Of a DNA stretch of 38,875 nt, positions 14,916 through 27,472 are shown in pieces. Location: positions 1 through 38,875 of the forward strand of contig CAINDI010000145.1 in NCBI GenBank assembly GCA_903847335.1, in the 5' to 3' direction. The notes below the pieces were generated by a model, which saw only the letters and a list, made by a program, of their open reading frames with translations, did no database searches and was not told the DNA's origin. The DNA comes from an uncultured Verrucomicrobiota bacterium. Lineage in GTDB: Bacteria > Verrucomicrobiota > Verrucomicrobiia > Palsa-1439. Every line of letters begins with the position of its first letter. Position 1 is the stretch's first letter. The position numbers and the translations under genes are program-made.

Positions 14916-15314
14916 ATGCCGACAATCAATCAATTAATTCGTAAAGGACGTGACAGGTTGAAGTCGCGGTCGAAGTCGCCCGCACTTGAAAACTGTCCGC
15001 AACGTCGTGGTGTCTGCTTACAGGTGATGACGCGTACGCCAAAGAAACCAAATTCGGCGTTGCGAAAAGTTGCCAAAGTTCGTTTGACCAATGGCACAGA
15101 AATCATTGCCTACATTCCTGATGAGGGTCACAACTTGCAAGAACACTCGATTGTTCTGGTGCGTGGTGGACGTGTGAAAGATTTGCCGGGCGTGCGTTAC
15201 CACATTGTGCGTGGAACGCTGGATGCGCTTGGGGTGGAAAAGCGGCGTCGCAGCCGTTCGAAATACGGCGTGAAACGCCCGAAGGAGGCCGCGGCCAAGC
15301 CAGCGGCAAAATAA
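14916..15314 (+). CDS. rpsL: 30S ribosomal protein S12
   Basis: S12 monitors codon-anticodon pairing in the decoding centre. The 132-residue protein has canonical [31 protein letters not shown] (with the streptomycin-sensitive lysine) and [14 protein letters not shown] basic, alanine-rich tail ([13 protein letters not shown]) extends the usual C-terminus by about eight residues. It opens the str segment, five nt before rpsG. Confidence 0.98.
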
Positions 15315-15319
15315 TTTAG

Positions 15320-15790
15320 ATGCGTAGACACCGATCAGAACGAAGAGTCCGTCCCGGCGATCCAAGATTCAATAGTCAGTTGATTACGCGGATGATTAAT
15401 ACTGTAATGCGTGGTGGTAAAAAATCAGTAGCTGAACGTGTGGTGTATGGCGCGTTTGACCGGATTGCAGAAAAGAATAAAGACAAGAGTCCAATGGATG
15501 TCTTGCAGGCCGCGATGGATAACGTGAAGCCGAAGTTGGAAGTCAAATCCAGGCGTGTAGGTGGTGCAAACTATCAGGTGCCGGTGGAGGTAACTTCTGA
15601 CCGTCAGGAAGCATTGGCACTGCGCTGGATGATTGATTATGCTAAAGGTCGTAAGGCGACCGGTATGACGGATGCATTGGCATCAGAAATTATGGATGCT
15701 GCCAATAACACCGGTTCGGCAGTTAAAAAACGTGAAGATATGCACAAGATGGCGCAGGCTAACCGGGCTTTTGCGCACTACCGCTGGTAG
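15320..15790 (+). CDS. rpsG: 30S ribosomal protein S7
   Basis: S7 nucleates assembly of the 30S head and contacts E-site tRNA. The 156-residue protein has the expected length and motifs (MRRHRSERRVRPGDPRFNS at the N-terminus, RRVGGANYQVPVEV, LRWMIDYAKGR, C-terminal AFAHYRW). The 5-nt rpsL-rpsG gap leaves no room for the S7 repressor site that E. coli has between these genes. Confidence 0.98.
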   Translation: MRRHRSERRVRPGDPRFNSQLITRMINTVMRGGKKSVAERVVYGAFDRIAEKNKDKSPMDVLQAAMDNVKPKLEVKSRRVGGANYQVPVEVTSDRQEALALRWMIDYAKGRKATGMTDALASEIMDAANNTGSAVKKREDMHKMAQANRAFAHYRW

Positions 15791-15851
15791 TAGTCTTTGG
15801 ATAGTCTTACCAAGAAAAGTTCATCGGGAATAACTTTCGTTAGAGATAAAA

Positions 15852-18008
15852 ATGGTAGCTGTTGCTGAACAATCGAAGATACAGACGAAGTCGCGGTCCG
15901 ACGCGAAGCGCCAAGTGACGCTGGAGCGGACACGCAACATCGGGATTTGTGCGCACATCGACGCCGGTAAAACGACGACGACGGAGCGGATTCTTTACTA
16001 TACCGGTAAGGTGTATAAGATTGGTGAAGTTCACGAAGGCACTGCGACCATGGACTGGATGGAGCAGGAGCAAGAACGCGGCATTACAATTACCAGTGCT
16101 GCAACGACATGTTTCTGGCATGACCACCGGATCAATATTATTGACACGCCTGGGCACGTCGATTTTACGGTTGAAGTTGAACGCAGCTTGCGCGTGTTGG
16201 ATGGCGCTTGCGCTGTGTTCTGTGCTGTTGGCGGTGTCGAACCACAATCAGAAACGGTTTGGCGGCAGGCGAACAAGTATAAAGTTCCGCGGATCGCTTT
16301 TGTTAATAAAATGGATCGTACCGGTGCTGACTTCGAGGCAGCGGTTGCGCAGATGCGTGATCGACTTGCGGCAAACGCTGTTCCTATTCAATTGCCAATT
16401 GGGAAAGAATCCGCGTTCAAGGGGATTATTGATCTCGTTGAGATGAAGGCGCACATTTGGTCGGGCGAAGAACTCGGCGCGCAATTTGAGGTGACTGATA
16501 TTCCAGCGGACTTGCAGGAGTATGCGAAAGCTGCGCACACCAAGCTGGTGGAAGCGATTGCCGATAAAGATGAAGAGACCACGAATCTTTATCTCGAAGG
16601 TAAAGAAATTTCGATTGAACAGTTAAAGGCTGGCCTCCGGCGGTTGGTCATTAAGAACGAACTCGTACCGGTGGTCTGTGGTTCAGCCTTTAAGAACAAA
16701 GGCGTGCAGCCATTGCTCAATGCGGTGGTGGATTACTTGCCTTCACCGGTGGACATTCCGGATGTTTCCGGGATGAATCCCGACAGTAAGGTGCCAGAAA
16801 CGCGACCAGCGGATGACAATGCGAAATTTAGTGCGCTGGCATTTAAGATTTGGACTGATCCGTATGCTGGTAAATTGATTTTTTTCCGCGTGTATTCCGG
16901 TAAAGCCACAAAAGGTATGACGGTGTACAATCCTCGAAATAACAAACGCGAGCGTATCGGTCGGCTCCTTGAAATGCACGCCAATCACCGGCAAGAAATT
17001 GATACGGTGTACTCTGGTGATATCGGCGCGTTGGTTGGTCTAAAAAATATTACCACCGGTGACACGATTTGCGACGAAGACGAAACGATTTTGCTCGAGT
17101 CGATTACGTTTCCAGAGCCGGTTATTTCGATGGCGATTGAGCCGAATACGAAAGCGGATCGCGAGAAGATGGCGACTGCACTGCAACGTCTTGCTGAAGA
17201 AGATCCGACTTTCCGGTTGACTAGCAATCACGAAACCGGTCAGACCATTATTTCCGGTATGGGTGAGTTACACCTCGACATTATCAAAGACCGGATGTTC
17301 CGAGAATTTAACGTTGGCGCTACCGCTGGTCGTCCGCAGGTGGCTTACCGGGAGACAATCACGAAGTCTGCTGAGGGCGAAGGTAAATTTATCCGTCAAT
17401 CGGGTGGTCGCGGTCAATACGGTCACGCTTGCATCACAATTGCGCGTGGTGAAAAAGGTTCTGGCGTTGTTGTTGAAGACGAAACTGTCGGCGGTTCAAT
17501 TCCTCGCGAATACATCGGAGCGGTTGAGGATGGCATCATTGAGGCGGCGCAGACTGGCGTGCTCGGTGGTTATCCGATGGTGGATGTGAAAGTTGAAATT
17601 GTTGACGGCACATTCCATGAAGTCGATAGCTCGGAAATCGCATTCAAAATGGCTGGAATTTTCGCATTCAAGGATGCTTGTAAAAAAGCGGGCGCAATCA
17701 TGCTTGAGCCGATTATGAGTGTTGAAGTAATCACGCCCGAAGAGCACATGGGTGATGTGATTGGTGATTTGAATAGTCGGCGTGGTAAAATTAGTCACAT
17801 TGAATCGCGCTCAAATTCAACCATCGTCCATGCGACCGTGGCATTGGCGGAAATGTTTGGTTATGCGACCGGATTGCGGTCATTGACAAAAGGCCGGGCG
17901 AGTTATTCGATGGAGCCGGCGGCGTTTGAGAAGGTGCCGGAAAACGTTCTCGCAACAATTTTGGATAAGTTAACTGTCGATAAAGCCGCCGAGGCGCAGA
18001 AGAAATGA
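15852..18008 (+). CDS. fusA: Elongation factor G
   Basis: EF-G is the GTPase that drives ribosomal translocation. The 718-residue protein has P-loop [15 protein letters not shown], switch I with the normal [16 protein letters not shown] and NKMD, followed by domains II-V ending in the TKGRASYSM region. The canonical switch I here contrasts with the altered one in EF-Tu. A basic N-terminal extension of about 30 residues precedes the P-loop. fusA overlaps rpsJ by four nt (ATGA) instead of being followed by tuf. Confidence 0.98.
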
Positions 18009-18313
18009 ATAATCAGCGTATCAGAATCCGTTTGAAAGGGTACGATCACCGGCTGCTGGATCAGTCAGCGCACGAGATCGTCGAAACTGCGAAGCGCACC
18101 GGCGCGAAAGTTGCCGGTCCGATTCCGTTGCCGACCGACATTTGGCGGCACACAGTCAATCGTTCGCCGCACTGCGATAAGAAATCAATGGAGTCATTTG
18201 AAATGCGGACGCACAAGCGGTTGTTGGATATTATTGATCCGACGGCGAAGACAGTGGATGAATTGAAGAAACTTAACCTCCCGGCAGGCGTGGACATCAC
18301 GATTAAGATTTAG
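18005..18313 (+). CDS. rpsJ: 30S ribosomal protein S10 (NusE)
   Basis: S10 is a 30S head protein that also binds NusB and NusG in antitermination. The 102-residue protein is canonical ([28 protein letters not shown] in two adjoining stretches, [21 protein letters not shown], then [10 protein letters not shown]). Its ATG lies inside the fusA stop (ATGA), so the S10 operon has no separate leader and the L4-dependent attenuator known from E. coli is absent. Confidence 0.98.
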
Positions 18314-18315
18314 TC

Positions 18316-18951
18316 ATGGAACTCCTCGGAAAAAAAATTGGAATGACGCAGATTTTCGACGCGAAGGGCAACTTCATTGGCGTGACCGCCATCGAAGTTG
18401 GTCCGTGTACGGTTCTGCAAAAGAAATCCCCAGAAACTGATGGCTATCACGCCGTACAACTTGGGTTTGGCGAGCGTAAACCAAAGCATGCGACGAAGCC
18501 GATGATTGGACATTGTAAAAAAGCAAACGCAGCTCCGGCGAGATCCATTCGAGAGTACCGGACGGAAGCACCGGTTGCATTTAATGTTGGCGATAAGATT
18601 ACGGTGAAAGAATTTCAGCCCGGCCAATTCGTGGATGTGATTGGGACGAGCAAGGGCAAGGGTTTTCAAGGTGTGGTGTTCCGTTATAAATTTGCCGGTG
18701 GTCCGATGACACACGGTAATAAAGGTTGGAAACGTCGGACCGGTGCGATTGGTGGACGTTTATTCCCTGGGCGCGTGTTTCGTGGTCAGAGAATGCCAGG
18801 TCACATGGGAAATGCACAAATTACCACGCAAAATTTACGGGTTGTCCAAGTGCGGGAAGCGGATAACCTGTTGCTAATCGAAGGCGCGGTGCCAGGTCCT
18901 CGTGGCGCAGTCGTCGTGATTCGGCACGCGAAGAAGAAGAGTAGCAAATGA
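18316..18951 (+). CDS. rplC: 50S ribosomal protein L3
   Basis: L3 is an early assembly protein reaching the peptidyl transferase centre. The 211-residue protein has MELLGKKIGMTQIFDAKGNF, then KGFQGVVFRYKF and GRVFRGQRMPGHMGN. The residue at the PrmB-methylated glutamine of E. coli (GQMGN) is His here (GHMGN). It starts two nt after rpsJ and overlaps rplD by four nt. Confidence 0.97.
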   Translation: MELLGKKIGMTQIFDAKGNFIGVTAIEVGPCTVLQKKSPETDGYHAVQLGFGERKPKHATKPMIGHCKKANAAPARSIREYRTEAPVAFNVGDKITVKEFQPGQFVDVIGTSKGKGFQGVVFRYKFAGGPMTHGNKGWKRRTGAIGGRLFPGRVFRGQRMPGHMGNAQITTQNLRVVQVREADNLLLIEGAVPGPRGAVVVIRHAKKKSSK

Positions 18952-19577
18952 AGATTTCTGTGATTAATACAGCCGGTGTTGCGAAGGGTGAAATTGAAAT
19001 CGCCGATGAACTCATCATTAAGACCGGAAAAGGTTCGCAAGCTGTGCACGATGCAGTGGTGGCGTACCGGGCCAATCAACGGCTCGGTACACACAAAACG
19101 AAGATGATTGGCGATGTTGCCGGTAGCGGTAAAAAGCCGTGGAAACAAAAAGGCACCGGTCGCGCGCGTGCTGGTTCGTTTGCTTCGCCGATTTGGCGGG
19201 GTGGCGGTATCGCTCACGGACCACAACCGCGAGATTACTCGATAAAGATTAATAAGAAGACTAGAGATTTGGCGTTGCGTAAGGTTTTGAGTGAACGGTT
19301 GATTGCCGGAGACATTGTGGTTGTGGATGAGTTGAAGTTAACCAGTCCGAAAACAAAAGATTTTGTCGGATTGCTCAGCAAGGTTGGCGCAGTGAATGGC
19401 GTGACTTTGGTGGTGACGGATGTGGTTGAAAAGAATTTAAAATTGGCGGCGCGTAACTTGCCGGCAGTCCAAGTTGAAGTCGCAGATTCAGTCAATACCT
19501 ATGAGTTATTGCGCTTTGATAAGATTGTGGTGACAAAAGCGGGCTTCGCAAAATTAGCAGCGCGGGTGGGTAAGTAA
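18948..19577 (+). CDS. rplD: 50S ribosomal protein L4
   Basis: L4 lines the exit tunnel and in some bacteria represses its own operon. The 209-residue protein has the conserved loop KKPWKQKGTGRARAGS followed by PIWRGGGIAHGP. Start and stop overlap the neighbours (ATGA with rplC, TAATG with rplW), so these three genes are tightly coupled. Confidence 0.97.
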   Translation: MKISVINTAGVAKGEIEIADELIIKTGKGSQAVHDAVVAYRANQRLGTHKTKMIGDVAGSGKKPWKQKGTGRARAGSFASPIWRGGGIAHGPQPRDYSIKINKKTRDLALRKVLSERLIAGDIVVVDELKLTSPKTKDFVGLLSKVGAVNGVTLVVTDVVEKNLKLAARNLPAVQVEVADSVNTYELLRFDKIVVTKAGFAKLAARVGK

Positions 19578-19861
19578 TGAAAAATCCGTACGATGTCATC
19601 AAAACTGTTCGCGTGACTGAAAAAGGCACCGAGCAAACGACGAAGTTCAACCAGTATCAGGTGGTGGTGGACAAGCACGCCAACAAGCTCGATATCAAAC
19701 ATGCGGTTGAACATGCGTTTAAAGTGAAAGTTGTGCGTGTGAACACGATGCGGGTTCGCGGTAAGGCGCGGCGGCAACGAACGCTACAGGCGGGATATTC
19801 AGCGGCGTGGAAAAAAGCAGTTGTCACTTTGAAACAGGGCGAAAAAATCGAACTTACGTAA
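19577..19861 (+). CDS. rplW: 50S ribosomal protein L23
   Basis: L23 sits at the tunnel exit and is the docking site for trigger factor and SRP. The 94-residue protein has the conserved RVTEKGTEQ, NKLDIKHAVEHAFKVKVVRVN and KKAVVTLKQGEKIEL. Its ATG shares one base with the rplD stop. Confidence 0.97.
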   Translation: MKNPYDVIKTVRVTEKGTEQTTKFNQYQVVVDKHANKLDIKHAVEHAFKVKVVRVNTMRVRGKARRQRTLQAGYSAAWKKAVVTLKQGEKIELT

Positions 19862-19867
19862 TCAATC

Positions 19868-20704
19868 ATGGGCCTCAAATCTTTTAGACCATTAACAAGT
19901 TCGCTGCGCGGAACAGTCCTCTCGGACTTCGCGGAGTTGACGAAGCGTACTCCGGAGAAGTCGCTGACTGTTGCGAAGCGGCGCACCGGTGGACGGAATA
20001 ACCTTGGGCGGATGACGGCGCGAGGCATTGGCGGCGGACACAAGCAACGCTACCGGATTATTGATTTCAAGCGAGATAAAGTTGGCGTCCCGGCGATTGT
20101 AGAAGCGATTGAATATGATCCAAACCGGACGGCGCGAATTGCGTTGTTGAAATACGAAGATGGCGAGAAGCGTTATATCATTGCTCCGATTGATTTGAAG
20201 GTTGGCGCAAAAGTGATGAGCGGTCCGGATGCGGAATTGGCCACCGGTAACGCATTGCCGTTGCGAAAGATTTTGCCGGGGATGCCAATTCACAATATCG
20301 AATTGCATCACGGTCGCGGCGGCCAGCTTTGCCGAAGCGCGGCGATGGCGGCGCAGATTATGGCTGTCGAAGGCGACTATGCGTTGGTGAAGTTGCCATC
20401 GAGTGAAATTCGGAAAATTCATGCGGATTGCTATGCGACGATTGGTCAAGTTGGCAATCCAGACAACATGAACATCATGCTTGGGAAAGCCGGTCGGAGC
20501 CGTTGGCTTGGAATTCGTGGAATCAGTCGTGGGATGTGCCGGAACCCAGTGGATCACCCAATGGGCGGTGGACAAGGTAAGAGTAAGGGTGGTGGCGGTT
20601 GGCATCATCCGTGTTCGCCGTGGGGTAAATTGGCGAAGGGTGGAAAGTCACGACGCCGGAAGAAGTATTCAAATTCACTTATCGTAGAGCGAAGGAAGAA
20701 ATAA
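19868..20704 (+). CDS. rplB: 50S ribosomal protein L2
   Basis: L2 supports subunit joining and peptidyl transfer. The 278-residue protein is full length. The highly conserved loop normally written DHPHGGGEG reads DHPMGGGQG, keeping the first His (the E. coli H229 equivalent) but replacing the second with Met. It is followed by a glycine-rich [11 protein letters not shown] segment. I believe related phyla also vary here. The rpsS ATG follows the TAA with no gap. Confidence 0.97.
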
Positions 20705-20983
20705 ATGGGACGTTCGCTAAAAAAAGGTCCGTTTGTAGATGCCCACCTGATGGAGAAGGTGGAGAAAATGTTGACGAGCGAGAAGAAGCCAGTCAAGACT
20801 TGGTCTCGTCGCTCAATGATTGTACCGGACTTTATTGGTCACACATTTTTAGTGCACAATGGCAAGAGTCACTTACCGGTGTTCGTAACGGAAAATATGG
20901 TCGGTCACCGGTTAGGTGAATTTGCGCCGACGCGGACATTTAGAGCGCACGGTGCGGCGACGGAGAAAGCCGTCGCGAAGTAA
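20705..20983 (+). CDS. rpsS: 30S ribosomal protein S19
   Basis: S19 lies in the 30S head and contacts S13. The 92-residue protein starts [19 protein letters not shown] and has [17 protein letters not shown]. In nearly all bacteria rplV follows directly; here a 714-bp foreign-looking gene intervenes. Confidence 0.98.
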
Positions 20984-20987
20984 TATC

Positions 20988-21701
20988 GTGCTGGCGCGAG
21001 CTAAGTTTGCTTGGGTTGTTTTGTTCTTTGTAATCGGTGGAGTTATATGGGCAGACGATGAGTCGCTCCGGAAGGCACTGGATCAGCTCAGTGCGAGCTA
21101 CGCGGAAACGCAAAGTAAATTGCGTGACCGAGAAATAGCTCTGAAAGCGTTGACGGAAAGTCTGGCAATTGCGAAGACAGAGAGTGAATTAATTCAAAAT
21201 CTCTGGGCCGATGCGCAGGCGCGAGCGCAAACAGTGAGCGCGAATCTGACGGAGTCAGACGCAGCGGCAATACAATGGCAATTAGTCGAGACACTTCATA
21301 AATTATATTTAGCGGAGACGGAGCAAAAGCGGTTGGTAGAGTTGCTGAAGCGATTGGTCTCAGGAGTTGAGTCGAATCGGAATATTGTCAGTGAGATTAT
21401 AGAGGCAAAGCAATTGTTGGCAGAGAAGCCGATAGGTGCAATAAAGCCGTCAGGCAGTTCATCGTTAGTCACGGCGCGGATTTTAGAAGTGAATCCAAAG
21501 CTCCGTCTGGTGGTATTCGATGTTGGGATGCAGCAAGGTGCGAGAATCGGAATGCCGTTAATAATTTTTCGCGGCGACCATGCGGTTGCCGAATTGCGAG
21601 TCGTGGATGTGCGCCAGAAAATTTGCGGCGCAGTGATTGAAAATGTGGATAATAACGTCACATTAAAGGCGGGTGATACCGCACGAGTGACGAAGGGTTA
21701 G
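20988..21701 (+). CDS. Predicted secreted coiled-coil protein inside the S10 operon, function unknown
   Basis: I do not recognise this gene by name. It fills the place between rpsS and rplV, which are normally adjacent. I read a GTG start at 20988, five nt after the rpsS stop, giving 237 residues; the longer open frame from 20916 overlaps rpsS and is less likely. Residues 1-22 look like a signal peptide (basic LARAK, hydrophobic core, cleavage IWA/DDE). Residues about 24-145 form long charged helices with heptad character, then a Ser/Pro linker (146-158). A beta-rich C-terminal domain (159-237) has the pattern ILEVNPKLRLVVFDVG and RIGMPLIIFRGD, resembling the small barrel of MreC- or FlgT-like envelope proteins. 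Rare codons ATA, TTA and AGA appear that the ribosomal genes nearly lack. There is no good ribosome binding site, so translation may depend on coupling to rpsS. Confidence 0.85.
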   Translation: MLARAKFAWVVLFFVIGGVIWADDESLRKALDQLSASYAETQSKLRDREIALKALTESLAIAKTESELIQNLWADAQARAQTVSANLTESDAAAIQWQLVETLHKLYLAETEQKRLVELLKRLVSGVESNRNIVSEIIEAKQLLAEKPIGAIKPSGSSSLVTARILEVNPKLRLVVFDVGMQQGARIGMPLIIFRGDHAVAELRVVDVRQKICGAVIENVDNNVTLKAGDTARVTKG

Positions 21702-21710
21702 ATAAATTTT

Positions 21711-22046
21711 ATGGATGTGTTAGCGACAACTAAATATGCGCGAATGAGTCCCGCCAAGGTTGGCGAGGTGACGCGAATGATTCATGGCAAACGTGCCGGA
21801 GAAGCACTGGAATTGTTGCGGGCGGTTCCGCGTAAGTCGGCGCGCTTGATTGAAAAAACTTTGAAGTCAGCGATTGCCAATGCGACGAACAACGCGAAGT
21901 TAGCGGCGGATACTTTAGTTGTGAAAGAAGCGATGGCGAATGAGGGGCCTCGTTTGAAACGATTTCAGCCAAAGGCGCGTGGAAGCGCGGGACCGATTAT
22001 TAAGCGGTTAAGTCATATTCGGATCGTGTTGACGGACGGACAATAA
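21711..22046 (+). CDS. rplV: 50S ribosomal protein L22
   Basis: L22 lines the peptide exit tunnel with a long beta hairpin. The 111-residue protein has YARMSPAKVGEVTRMIHGK at the N-terminus and the tunnel hairpin GPRLKRFQPKARGSAGPI near residues 79-96. It resumes the ribosomal series nine nt after the coiled-coil gene, so that gene has not broken the operon. Confidence 0.97.
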   Translation: MDVLATTKYARMSPAKVGEVTRMIHGKRAGEALELLRAVPRKSARLIEKTLKSAIANATNNAKLAADTLVVKEAMANEGPRLKRFQPKARGSAGPIIKRLSHIRIVLTDGQ

Positions 22047-22049
22047 TCT

Positions 22050-22730
22050 ATGGGACAAAAAGTAAATCCGATTGGTTTTCGCGTGGCAGTCACCAAAGAC
22101 TGGCTGTCGAAGTGGTATGCCGATAAGAAAGATTACGCACCGCTCTTGCTCGAAGACATTAAGATTCGTGAAATTGTAAAGACGAAGCTCGCTGCGGCAG
22201 CGGTGTCGAAGATTACCATCGAACGCTATGCGAACCGGGCGCGGATTACAATTCACACCGCACGGCCTGGGATTGTTATCGGACGGAAAGGTTCGGAAAT
22301 CGACAAGCTCAAAGAAGATTTGGGCAAGATGACCGGTAAAGAAATTTACGTTGATATTGTCGAGGTGAAACAGCCGGAGACGAACGCGCAATTAGTGGCG
22401 GAGAATATTGGACTGCAACTCGAGCGTCGGATTAGTTTTCGTCGGGCTATGAAAAAGACGGTGCAGACGGCAATGGATTTTGGTGCGCAAGGAATTAAGG
22501 TTGCTTGCGGTGGACGGCTTGGTGGATCGGAAATTGCGCGGCATGAAAAATACCGGGTCGGAAAGATTCCGTTGCACACATTACGGGCCGATATTGATTA
22601 TGGTTTTGCCGAAGCCAATACGGTGTACGGCAAAATTGGGATTAAAGTTTGGGTTTGTAAGGGCGAACGCGCCCGTAAAGAGCCGATACCGGTAGCGAAG
22701 CCGGTGGCTCCAGCCGCACCGGTAGCTTAG
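22050..22730 (+). CDS. rpsC: 30S ribosomal protein S3
   Basis: S3 forms part of the mRNA entry site. The 226-residue protein has [18 protein letters not shown], a KH domain with GXXG ([14 protein letters not shown]), and a C-terminal domain with [10 protein letters not shown]. The tail [13 protein letters not shown] is a low-complexity extension, similar in style to tails on S12 and L17 here. Confidence 0.97.
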
Positions 22731-22743
22731 GAGATATTTTGAC

Positions 22744-23154
22744 ATGCCACTGATGCCAGCCAGAGTAAAGCACCGCAAACAACAACGCGGTAATCGTGCC
22801 GGGATTGCTTGGCGCGGTACGGAAGTATCGTTTGGTGAATTTGGATTACAGGCGTTAGATCGCACTTGGTTGACGGCGGTGCAGATTGAGGCGTGCCGGG
22901 TTGCGTTGTCGAGGAATATGAAACGTCGTGGGAAGCTTTGGATCCGGATTTTCCCAGACAAGCCATTCACGAAGCGACCACCGGAGACCCGGATGGGTCA
23001 TGGTAAGGGAAATGTTGAAGGTTGGGTCGCAGTGGTGCGACCGGGAAATGTATTATTTGAGATGGGCGGCGTGACCGAAGCGTTGGCGCAGGATTCGTTC
23101 CGGCTGGCGGCGGCGAAATTGCCAATCAAGACTCGTTTTGTAAAGAGACGCTAA
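22744..23154 (+). CDS. rplP: 50S ribosomal protein L16
   Basis: L16 helps position A-site tRNA. The 136-residue protein has canonical [17 protein letters not shown] and [26 protein letters not shown] upstream supports the start. Its TAA shares a base with the rpmC ATG. Confidence 0.97.
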
Positions 23155-23369
23155 TGAAATCGAAGGAAATTCGGGAATTATCAGACGTGGAAGCGCAAGC
23201 AAAGGTGCGTGATCTACGACAGGAATTGTTTAACTTGCGCCTGCAACAGCAAGGCGCGCGGTTGGAGCGTCCTAGCCGGTTGCATGATGTGCGCCGGGAT
23301 GTCGCGCGAATCGAAACTATTTTACGCGAACGCCAGTTAAAGGCTGTTGCAAGTAAGTCAGAGAAATGA
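23154..23369 (+). CDS. rpmC: 50S ribosomal protein L29
   Basis: L29 sits beside L23 at the tunnel exit. The 71-residue protein has the two-helix fold with [22 protein letters not shown] and [10 protein letters not shown]. It overlaps rplP by one base and rpsQ by four. Confidence 0.96.
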
Positions 23370-23665
23370 TCATGGTCGAGCAAACTCAACAATCTATTGT
23401 GCAGCAAAAAGAACTTGTCGGTGAAGTCGTCAGCGACAAGATGAATAAGACCATTGTCGTCAAGGTTTCACGGCGGGTGCGGCATCCGAAATATCATAAG
23501 GTAATTACGAAGCATAAAAAGTTTTATGCGCACGACGAAAAAGGTGAAGCGGGGATCGGCGATAGTGTGCGTATTGTTGCATCGCGACCATTGAGCAAGT
23601 TAAAGCGCTGGACGCTTGTGGAAATTGTCGTCAAGTCGAAGTCGGTTGAGAAGGTGGAAGCATGA
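23366..23665 (+). CDS. rpsQ: 30S ribosomal protein S17
   Basis: S17 is a primary 16S-binding OB-fold protein. The 99-residue protein has [19 protein letters not shown] and [17 protein letters not shown]. About 15 residues ([15 protein letters not shown]) precede the usual N-terminus. A second ATG at 23372 could be used; the ATG at 23366 overlaps the rpmC stop. The start region is nearly identical to that of nusG. Confidence 0.96.
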
Positions 23666-24027
23666 TTCAGATTCGTACCAATTTAGATGTGGCTGATAAT
23701 ACCGGCGCTCGCTTAGCGTGGGCGATTGGTGTCTTGGGTCACCAGAAGCGGTATGCTCGCGTTGGCGATGTTATCAAAGCGCACATCAAAGAAGCGGCGC
23801 CGGATGGTACAGTGAAAAAAGGTGAAGTTGTCACCTGTGTCGTCGTTCGCACTCGTTCAGCGCTCCGGCGGTCGGATGGTTCATATTTGCGATTTGATAG
23901 TAACGCGGTGGTGATTATTGATGACCAACACAATCCGAAAGGCACGCGTATTTTCGGACCGGTGGCGCGTGAGTTGCGCGATAAAAATTTCAGCAAGATT
24001 ATTTCATTAGCGCCTGAGGTGCTGTAA
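23662..24027 (+). CDS. rplN: 50S ribosomal protein L14
   Basis: L14 forms an intersubunit bridge with 16S helix 14. The 121-residue protein is standard: [20 protein letters not shown], then DAPDG-like [18 protein letters not shown] and a C-terminal [24 protein letters not shown] segment. It overlaps rpsQ as ATGA and opens the spc part. Confidence 0.98.
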
Positions 24028-24029
24028 CG

Positions 24030-24314
24030 ATGAATACGCTGCACATTAAAAAAGATGATTTGGTGGTGGTAGTCTCCGGTGAAGACAAGGGAAAATCTGG
24101 TAAGGTGCTGGTCGCATTACCGGAAAAACTTCGAGTCGTCGTCGAAGGCGTTAACTTGATGAAGAAAGCGATTCGTAAGTCGCAGGATAATCCAAAGGGC
24201 GGAATCATTACGAAAGAGTTTCCGATTGCGGCCGGGAAAGTAATGTTGCAAGAAAAATTTGAGCTGCGTAAGAAGAAGCGCGGCGTGCCGGTCACTAACG
24301 CGGCAAACGATTAA
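24030..24314 (+). CDS. rplX: 50S ribosomal protein L24
   Basis: L24 is an assembly-initiating protein with a KOW domain. The 94-residue protein has IKKDDLVVVVSGEDKGKSGKV and VEGVNLMKKAIR, followed by GGIITKEFPI. It starts two nt after rplN. The 8-nt gap to rplE leaves no room for the S8 repressor hairpin known in E. coli. Confidence 0.97.
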   Translation: MNTLHIKKDDLVVVVSGEDKGKSGKVLVALPEKLRVVVEGVNLMKKAIRKSQDNPKGGIITKEFPIAAGKVMLQEKFELRKKKRGVPVTNAAND

Positions 24315-24322
24315 TACGGATT

Positions 24323-24859
24323 ATGTCACAACTTCAGGAACATTATAAAACAAACGTGGTCGAGCAACTCATCAAGGGCGGCAAGTATGCCAACCGGATG
24401 CAAGTGCCAAAGTTGGAAAAAGTCGTTATCAACATGGGCGTCAACTCGAAACACGATAAAGACGTTATCAACGAAGCGCAGGCAGAGTTGGTGACGATTA
24501 CCGGTCAGAAACCGATTGTCACACACGCCAAAAAGAGCGTTGCGAATTTTAATGTTCGCGAAGGGATGCCGGTCGGAGTGAAGGTCACCTTGCGCGGAAA
24601 ACGGATGTACGAATTTCTCGAGCGCTTTTTGAATGCCGCCTTACCGCGGATTCGTGATTTTCGCGGTGTGAATCCTCGTGGATTTGATGGGCGCGGGAGT
24701 TACACGATGGGCGTGAAGGATCAAGCGATTTTTCCAGAGGTCGAGATGGATAAGGTAAAACACAATCTCGGGATGGATGTGACGATTGTCACGTCGGCAA
24801 ATACCGATGCAGAAGCGAAAGAGCTGCTGAAGCTGCTCGGAATGCCGTTTAGCAGTTAG
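24323..24859 (+). CDS. rplE: 50S ribosomal protein L5
   Basis: L5 binds 5S rRNA and contacts P-site tRNA. The 178-residue protein has [13 protein letters not shown], the loop [21 protein letters not shown] and [21 protein letters not shown], all canonical. Confidence 0.98.
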
Positions 24860-24872
24860 AGGACGAAACGTT

Positions 24873-25058
24873 ATGGCGAAATTAACCTGGGAACTGAAAG
24901 CAGCGGGACCGGCGAAGTTTTCTTCGCAGAAGTACAACCGTTGCAAAACCTGTGGACGCCGGCATGCATTTATCCGGCGCTTTCAGATTTGCCGGATTTG
25001 CTTCCGGGAATTGGCCAGCCAGGGAAAAATCCCCGGCGTTACAAAGGCGAGTTGGTAG
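24873..25058 (+). CDS. rpsZ: 30S ribosomal protein S14, zinc-binding short type
   Basis: S14 completes the 30S head near the A site. At 61 residues this is the short zinc-binding form, with C24, C27, C40 and C43 in a CxxC-x12-CxxC pattern and the C-terminal [18 protein letters not shown] lies upstream of the ATG. It sits between L5 and S8 as usual. Confidence 0.97.
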
Positions 25059-25061
25059 GAC

Positions 25062-25460
25062 ATGAATCAGACTGATCCCATTGCCGATATGTTGACGCGG
25101 ATTCGCAACGCGAATAGCGCACTTAAACCCGAAGCCGCGATGCCATTTTCACGGATGAAGGGTGAGATTGCAAAAGTTCTCAAGCGCGAAGGTTACATCG
25201 CAGACTTTTATGTTGAGAAGCCGGAAGCCGGTCCGCAGCTTCTAAAAATTCAACTCAAAATTGTCGGCAAAGAGCGTTCGATTGTCGGCATCGCACGCAT
25301 CAGCCGTCCGGGCTTGCGGCGCTATACCGGCGCACAGAAAGTTCCGCGTGTGTTAGGCGGAATGGGCATTTCGATTGTCACGACCTCCAAAGGCGTGATG
25401 ACCGGCCACGAGGCCAAAAAGGCTAATCTCGGCGGCGAAATTCTAGCATACGTTTGGTGA
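25062..25460 (+). CDS. rpsH: 30S ribosomal protein S8
   Basis: S8 is a primary binder of the 16S central domain. The 132-residue protein has DPIADMLTRIRNANSA, KPGLRRY-type RPGLRRYTG and the C-terminal GGMGISIVTTSKGVMTG segment followed by GGEILAYVW. Confidence 0.98.
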   Translation: MNQTDPIADMLTRIRNANSALKPEAAMPFSRMKGEIAKVLKREGYIADFYVEKPEAGPQLLKIQLKIVGKERSIVGIARISRPGLRRYTGAQKVPRVLGGMGISIVTTSKGVMTGHEAKKANLGGEILAYVW

Positions 25461-25463
25461 GAT

Positions 25464-26024
25464 ATGTCACGCATCGGAAAACAACCAGTTTTAATACCAG
25501 CCAAAACCAAAGTTGCGGTTACCGGTCAGTTGGTCGCGGTCGAAGGACCGAAGGGCAAACTTGAATTCACGGTCCCGACGCCAATTATTGTCGTTGTCAA
25601 GGATGGAAAAGTTATTGCGTCCACCAAACAATTGGATCGCACCGGGAAGTCGCGGTGGGGATTGACTCGCAGTTTAATCGCAAACATGGTCAAAGGTGTC
25701 AATGACGGTTACTCGAAGCAATTACTCGTTGAAGGTGTTGGTTTCCGGGCTGCTGTGCAAAATACAAACTTGAATCTTCAACTTGGCTATTCGCATCCGA
25801 TTAATTTTGAGATTCCGAAAGGCATCAAAATCACAGTGGTGGACACGGCGGACAAAAAACCGCAAATCACCATTGAAGGTGCCGACAAACAAATGGTTGG
25901 CGAAGTCGCCGCGCGGATTCGCCGGTTCTACAAACCTGAGCCGTACAAGGGTAAAGGAATTCGGTATGTTGGTGAAATCGTTCGCCGCAAGGCTGGTAAG
26001 ACTGTTACTACGGCAGGTGGTTAA
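25464..26024 (+). CDS. rplF: 50S ribosomal protein L6
   Basis: L6 binds near the sarcin-ricin loop. The 186-residue protein has [29 protein letters not shown] and the C-terminal [18 protein letters not shown] signature. Confidence 0.98.
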
Positions 26025-26029
26025 TTCTC

Positions 26030-26386
26030 ATGACTCCGAAAAATAAAACTCAATCGCGAAATCGTCGGCATCTCCGGCTGCGACAAAATATTTCTGGCAC
26101 AGCTGTCCGCCCGCGGATGGCAGTGGCGATGACCGGTAAACATATTTACGTTCAGTTCATTGACGATGTGGCCGGTAAGACACTCGCCGCAGCCAGCACG
26201 ATTGCTGACGACGGCAAGGGGACGAAATCCACTGTCGCCGGTGCGAAGAAAATTGGCGCACTCGCTGCGCAAAAGGCGAAAGAAAAAAACATTAGCACGG
26301 TCGTATTTGACCGGGGCGGATTCCGGTATCACGGTCGCGTAAAAGCGTTGGCTGATGCCGCCCGCGAAGCAGGATTGAAATTCTAG
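26030..26386 (+). CDS. rplR: 50S ribosomal protein L18
   Basis: L18 brings 5S rRNA into the large subunit. The 118-residue protein has [37 protein letters not shown] and the C-terminal [20 protein letters not shown]. Confidence 0.97.
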
Positions 26387-26388
26387 TT

Positions 26389-26982
26389 ATGGCACCAGAA
26401 AAAAAGCCCAGACTCGCCAAGCCCGTTGTTCCGAAAGCCAAGGAGGCCTCACCGGTCGCCGCTGCCGAAGAACTCGGTGTTGAACTTGAAGCCCGCGAAG
26501 GCGAGCTGATTGAGAAAGTTGTTTTTGTCAACCGGAGCGCTAAGGTCGTCAAAGGTGGTCGCCGTTTCCATTTTAGTGCGTTGGTTGTCGCCGGGAACCG
26601 GAATGGAAAAGTTGGTTGGGGTTTTGGTAAGGCGAACGAAGTGGCAGATGCGATTCGCAAAGGCACCGATCAAGCCAAGAACGCATTGGTCAAAATGAAT
26701 TTAAAAGGCAGCACGATTCCACACGAGATTGTCGGCGTGTTTGGTGGTGGTCGTGTATTGTTGCGGCCAGCATCGCCAGGGACAGGTGTTATTGCCGGTG
26801 GTAGCGTTCGCGCGGTGCTTGAAGCGGTCGGTGTGCACGATGTGCTCACGAAATCGCTCGGCTCCAGCAATGCGGTCAATGTTGTCAAAGCCACGCTGGA
26901 TGCGCTTTCGAAGTTGCGGTTACATGATGAAATTTACCGAGTGCGCGGGATTAGCAAATCGAAACCAGCAGGAGTGAGTTAA
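26389..26982 (+). CDS. rpsE: 30S ribosomal protein S5 with N-terminal extension
   Basis: S5 acts in decoding fidelity and mRNA unwinding. The core is canonical ([56 protein letters not shown]). The 197-residue protein carries about 40 extra N-terminal residues, lysine/proline-rich then acidic. No ribosome binding site is visible; the ATG lies two nt after the rplR stop, so reinitiation is likely. rpmD (L30), which normally follows, is absent; rplO starts one base after the stop. Confidence 0.97.
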
Positions 26983-26983
26983 T

Positions 26984-27472
26984 ATGACGATGCGTTTGCA
27001 TAATCTTAAACCGCGTCCTGGTGCCAAACATCGTAGCAAGCGAAAGGGTCTTGGCGAAAGTTCCGGTCACGGTAAAACTTCTGGTCGTGGCGGCAAAGGT
27101 CAGACCGCCCGTGCCGGTAGCGGAATTCGTTTGGGATTTGAAGGCGGTCAGATGCCGTTGTTGCGTCGGATTCCGAAGCGCGGCTTTAATAATAAAGCGT
27201 TCGGCACGCATCTTTCGATTATCAATGTCGAGACGCTCAATGCGTTTGACAACGGTGAGATAGTGACGCCGGAAGTCTTATTGGAGCAGGGGATTCTTAA
27301 GAAATTACTCGAAGGCGTGAAGGTGCTTGGCACCGGTGATCTCACGAAGAAGTTAACGGTAAAGGCGCAACAATTTAGCGCTACGGCTCGTGAGAAAATC
27401 ACAAAGGCCGGCGGCACTTGTGAAGATTTGCCATTGCCGGGCATTCATACGAAGGCTGTTGCCGCGAAGTAA
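26984..27472 (+). CDS. rplO: 50S ribosomal protein L15
   Basis: L15 is a late assembly protein of the large subunit. The 162-residue protein has MRLHNLKPRPGAKHRSKRKG (after a short MT start), GHGKTSGRGGKGQTARAG and FEGGQMPLLRRIPKRGF. Confidence 0.97.
   Translation: MTMRLHNLKPRPGAKHRSKRKGLGESSGHGKTSGRGGKGQTARAGSGIRLGFEGGQMPLLRRIPKRGFNNKAFGTHLSIINVETLNAFDNGEIVTPEVLLEQGILKKLLEGVKVLGTGDLTKKLTVKAQQFSATAREKITKAGGTCEDLPLPGIHTKAVAAK

Follow-up and report, generated by a model that had tools for sequence, protein, structure and literature searches.

Few gene junctions in bacteria are as conserved as that between rpsS and rplV, and the gene order of the S10 cluster is generally very stable. In the stretch of DNA analysed here (the window: 38,875 nucleotides from an uncultured Verrucomicrobiota bacterium, contig CAINDI010000145.1), a gene for a predicted exported protein, referred to below as X, occupies this junction. 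Its presence raises the question of whether X is a genuine and old member of the cluster, what kind of protein it encodes, and whether its place beside ribosomal genes carries a functional meaning. The X frame is intact and extends from a GTG at 20988 to a stop at 21701, encoding 237 aa. The gaps of 4 nt from rpsS and 9 nt to rplV agree with the coordinates in the original prediction, which was made from the sequence alone, and from this spacing X is very probably co-transcribed with rplV. The features of the locus are as follows.

20705 to 20983, forward strand: rpsS (ribosomal protein S19), the 5' neighbour of X, used as a tblastn bait.
20988 to 21701, forward strand: X, exported coiled-coil and small beta-barrel protein, 237 aa, GTG start (open reading frame, homologues, dN/dS).
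20988 to 21053, forward strand: export signal of X, residues 1-22, MLARAKFAWVVLFFVIGGVIWA (sequence; hydrophobic N-terminus in homologues).
21057 to 21425, forward strand: helical, probable coiled-coil region of X, residues 24-146 (AlphaFold2 model; missing in short forms of X).
21474 to 21689, forward strand: C-terminal small beta barrel of X, residues 163-234, FlgT-C-like fold (models, alignments, Foldseek, FlgT_C profile matches).
21711 to 22046, forward strand: rplV (ribosomal protein L22), the constant 3' partner of X.

A promoter and terminator scan of 20400-22200 gave signals no commoner than in shuffled sequences. Elsewhere in the window (15852-18313), fusA and rpsJ overlap by 4 nt, with no tuf between the two.

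The N-terminus of X (MLARAKFAWVVLFFVIGGVIWA|DD) reads as a typical export signal, and a hydrophobicity scan detected a hydrophobic N-terminus in 61 of the 67 homologues at the S10 site and in 21 of the 27 from split clusters. Lipobox-like cysteines occur at the end of the signal in six loci, often in a C-S-L motif; judging from these residues, some lineages may make X as a lipoprotein. The AlphaFold2 model of X (input alignment of 34 sequences, mean pLDDT 85.6) begins with a helix over the signal; further helices span residues 24-83, 89-129, and 131-146, and the strands of a compact beta domain lie between 163 and 234. Modelled in isolation, the C-terminal domain reached a pLDDT of 88.6. Sequence and model thus bear out the proposed layout of a signal peptide, a coil of about 120 residues, and a small beta domain. 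The whole-chain pTM was 0.40, and neither the domain arrangement nor the oligomer state is fixed by the model. The barrel is the most conserved part of the protein, with the elements GxxxGxxxGM, R195, VxVR, and GD. The window's X carries the marks of the rplV-linked family, namely the barrel signature (GxxxGxxxGM, VxVR, GD), the place 5' of rplV, and the export signal.

The GTG start, low codon adaptation, and missing ribosome binding site of X could be taken as signs of a decayed fragment or a spurious open reading frame, a reading whose probability we consider negligible, given that the open frame and the protein sequence are conserved across the phylum and that dN/dS lies well under 1. In ten pairs, the dN/dS of X ranged from 0.13 to 0.31, mostly above the values of the flanking ribosomal genes and far below 1; X is under purifying selection. 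Homologues were recovered from 45 of the 57 related genomes searched. Decay of the gene, or its absence from all close relatives, would have spoken against the original prediction, and neither was found. Each of the homologues is a complete frame of about 235-300 aa, in nearly all cases with a hydrophobic N-terminus, the short forms described below apart.

Codon usage had been singled out as a peculiarity of X. This was confirmed for ATA, which supplies 7 of 17 Ile codons in X compared with 4 of 216 in 18 neighbouring genes, and to a mild degree for TTA, but AGA is not enriched. The codon adaptation index of X (0.612) is the lowest of the cluster, the other genes lying between 0.658 and 0.773. 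Its GC content (0.49) and GC3 (0.51) both fall inside the range of the neighbouring genes, so that X does not look foreign. A clear ribosome binding site is indeed missing, as had been noted; since rplB, rplC, rplV, and rpsC share this lack, it is ordinary for the cluster and was dropped as an argument about X. The GTG start is found in 9 of 10 members of the window's family, compared with ATG in all ribosomal genes of the cluster in the window, and 34 of 114 X genes from all loci analysed begin with GTG or TTG, a count with a rule-based choice of start in which some genomes appear repeatedly. The overall profile is that of a native, moderately expressed gene, and its starts, taken together with its weaker codon use, suggest a lower yield of X per mRNA than of the neighbouring proteins.

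How far the arrangement extends beyond the window was then a matter of synteny. All 30 of the best-match loci fetched in the first search of relatives held X between rpsS and rplV; a single-sequence scan of genome contigs gave no confirmed match. A survey of the phylum searched 135 genomes with the baits rpsS and rplV and took in the surrounding DNA; 122 of the genomes could be judged, the categories being assigned by hand from the search outputs (one locus, L071, was counted as X between rpsS and rplV by coordinates). X lies between rpsS and rplV in 43 of the 122 genomes, in full length in 32 and as a short form in 11, so that homologues in the same position do exist in other Verrucomicrobiota. 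In a further 28, the S10 cluster is broken after rpsS, which is found elsewhere, and X stands directly 5' of rplV. The remaining 51 genomes are without X: in 41, rpsS and rplV lie together, mostly with gaps of 1-20 or 85-150 nt, and in 10 the cluster is broken and X was not detected. Of 42 families, 29 include one or more genomes with X, and both states occur within five families. The median gaps are 12.5 nt from rpsS to X and 10.5 nt from X to rplV, and in two relatives the rpsS stop overlaps the X start.

Some details of these loci deserve separate mention. The short forms of X occupy the same slot with 110-130 aa and consist of signal and barrel, the whole coil being gone (L050, L051, L049, L099-L101, L118, L119, L220-L222, and L020, the last from the window's own family). 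In many families of other classes, the break in the cluster falls exactly behind rpsS, and the second half begins with X or rplV (L083, L091, L092, L097, L098, and L234-L272). Several families without X have a spacer of 85-120 nt between rpsS and rplV rather than a few bases (eleven loci).

Because X occupies the same site everywhere, this distribution is most simply explained by repeated loss, and the presence of both states within five families indicates that losses have occurred; the 41 intact clusters without the gene show that some backgrounds can do without it. In 28 of the 38 judged broken clusters X has stayed with rplV, and the genes on its 5' side vary there (TatC and His_biosynth were confirmed by Pfam, others were read by eye), which marks the X-rplV pair as the unit that is kept. 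The framing of X as an insertion special to this genome therefore does not hold: with same-slot homologues in tens of families, X is an old gene of the phylum, tied mainly to rplV. Recent insertion or horizontal import is ruled out by class-wide synteny and normal GC content.

Descent of the protein was assessed from its C-terminal domain. Distances between these domains track those of S3, S19, and L22 (rho 0.50; 0 of 999 permutations), and in a tree that covers 110 of these domains and rests on a short alignment, which leaves many forks unresolved, the rplV-site proteins are separate from paralogues elsewhere in the genomes, which form one clade with a support of 97. The proteins at the rplV site are thus orthologues. 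The paralogues share with X an N-terminal hydrophobic segment, a long coil, and a homologous C-terminal barrel (HMM E 4.6e-18), but differ in clade, barrel residues, and genome location. One of them is encoded in the window's own genome (locus L102; G000:C143:5738-6517), flanked by a yacP-like NYN gene on one side and ruvB on the other. In four loci, such paralogues occur as tandem pairs.

The original prediction compared X to an envelope protein of the MreC or FlgT type, and the two likenesses fared differently. Pfam and NCBIfam searches with the window's X gave no model over cut-off, and Pfam returned chance matches only. In a Foldseek search with the isolated C-terminal domain, the top two solved matches were 8z5n_0 (E 2.6e-4), which is FlgT as part of the LPHT ring of the flagellum, and 3w1e (E 7.6e-4), the FlgT crystal structure, both with a TM score of about 0.68. 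The next matches, with a nearly equal score, were the N-terminal barrels of F1-ATPase subunits. The top viral structure match of X also carries the name FlgT C-terminal domain. The FlgT_C profile (PF16538) is weakly matched by 10 of 41 family members (best E 8.1e-5); its curated cut-off was not reached, and the window's X gave no match to it. A PDB sequence search with the whole X profile returned coiled coils only; the best PDB sequence match of the X-family profile was TsaP (E 0.008), a secretin- and pilus-associated envelope protein. X therefore resembles FlgT-C in its fold but does not qualify as a member by its profile score, and the FlgT half of the comparison gains support accordingly from the best solved matches and the weak profile matches. 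The Vibrio flagellar H/T-ring protein FlgT (PF16538; 3w1e, 8z5n chain 0) resembles X in being exported and in ending in a small barrel of the same fold class; it has N-terminal and middle domains where X has a long helical region, and X differs further in its place in a ribosomal cluster. Both FlgT and TsaP work at machines of the periplasm or the outer membrane, and for this reason a docking or assembly role is proposed for X. Small barrels recur in unrelated proteins, which counts against a FlgT-type docking role.

The MreC comparison rests on topology, as MreC (PF04085) also has a membrane-proximal coil followed by a beta barrel, and some X-family members match MreC models weakly (best 7.7e-6 with NCBIfam, 0.0018-0.0032 with Pfam). 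On these grounds X could be a diverged form of MreC, acting as a scaffold for wall elongation. However, the window's X has no match over cut-off to PF04085, and MreC was found over cut-off as a separate gene in 118 of the 135 Verrucomicrobiota genomes, many of which also have X. X adjoins rplV, not mreB, and its barrel fits FlgT better. The window's own genome (G000, 99.6% complete) keeps X although neither MreC nor a true MreB was found in it by Pfam; a genome of the same genus (G001) has MreB. The missing mre genes could reflect loss of the rod system or an assembly gap and are not decisive alone. Taken together, these observations largely refute a divergent MreC, which we regard as very improbable, and the MreC type, like a role for X as a replacement of MreC, is given up.

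There remains the question of the gene's place. The strongest rival to a functional coupling is positional inertia, by which X would be an ordinary envelope protein placed there without functional significance, as an old insertion beside rplV that persists because breakage of a ribosomal operon is costly. The general stability of S10 gene order fits this reading, as do the repeated losses of X, which left a gap of 1-20 nt in many families, and codon use and start codons that suggest only modest expression. Against it, the breaks fall on the rpsS side, and X remains with rplV behind differing upstream genes; clean losses, moreover, show that removal is possible. That X is nevertheless found in so many families suggests a benefit from the gene, not necessarily from its place, and we hold inertia to be possible, though on the unlikely side. 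An alternative of a different kind would have X act in cis, its translation and export bringing the S10 mRNA to the membrane or monitoring secretion and so tuning rplV and later genes in the manner of SecM or VemP. The constant presence of an exported protein just 5' of rplV at short spacing is what such a device would require, and the overlaps of rpsS stop and X start in L008 and L009 and the fact that linkage of X to rplV outlasts that to rpsS point the same way. Conservation, however, resides in the folded C-terminal barrel rather than in a short arrest-like tail: two X-family alignments show no short conserved stretch behind the barrel. In some relatives the protein is reduced to signal and barrel, and an Rfam search of 15000-27000 found no element. 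A conserved folded barrel and short forms made of signal and barrel indicate that the product matters, not only the translation of an exported protein in cis, and we judge a cis-acting role to be quite unlikely.

The reading we favour, with a probability of roughly 0.5, is that X is an ancient Verrucomicrobiota exported protein that has a structural or assembly role in the envelope and is made in step with the ribosomal proteins. X is most likely periplasmic and probably oligomeric, with a synthesis that would follow ribosomal protein transcription. According to this proposal, the gene, directly 5' of rplV in the S10 cluster, would be transcribed together with rplV, and the N-terminal signal would take the protein across the inner membrane, being cleaved, lipid-attached, or retained as an anchor depending on the lineage. 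X would then oligomerise via its long helix, and the FlgT-C-type barrel could dock it on an envelope structure in the periplasm or at the outer membrane. The position in the cluster would cause the synthesis of X to rise and fall with ribosome production, and such a link to growth rate may be the reason why the position has been kept. The phylum-wide place 5' of rplV suggests a link between the production of this envelope protein and that of ribosomes, and the position of X and its lower codon optimisation are compatible with a coupling of envelope growth and translation capacity.

Other non-ribosomal genes, such as secY, adk, map, and infA, are co-located with ribosomal protein genes, as X is. 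Their products work in the cytoplasm or in the translocon itself, whereas the product of X is exported and its gene lies in the S10 part of the cluster, between rpsS and rplV. No description of gene X was found in the open-access full-text literature. The PVC signature protein CT421.2 of Gupta and co-workers is, like X, a hypothetical protein typical of this superphylum, with 53 to about 80 aa (PMC3444138); X, with 237 aa, a signal, and a barrel, is a different protein, and the CT421.2 paper does not mention S19, L22, or the rpsS-rplV site (PMC3444138).

A more far-reaching version, which we put forward tentatively and consider rather unlikely, is that the phylum has a built-in link between ribosome and envelope, in which an exported scaffold made from the S10 mRNA scales envelope assembly with translation, or the export of X feeds back on ribosomal protein expression. 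X gives concrete access to the question of how a phylum of ecological and medical relevance adjusts its envelope growth to its production of ribosomes. In organisms with a little-known cell biology it is also a clear gene target, and it may serve as a marker of the phylum.
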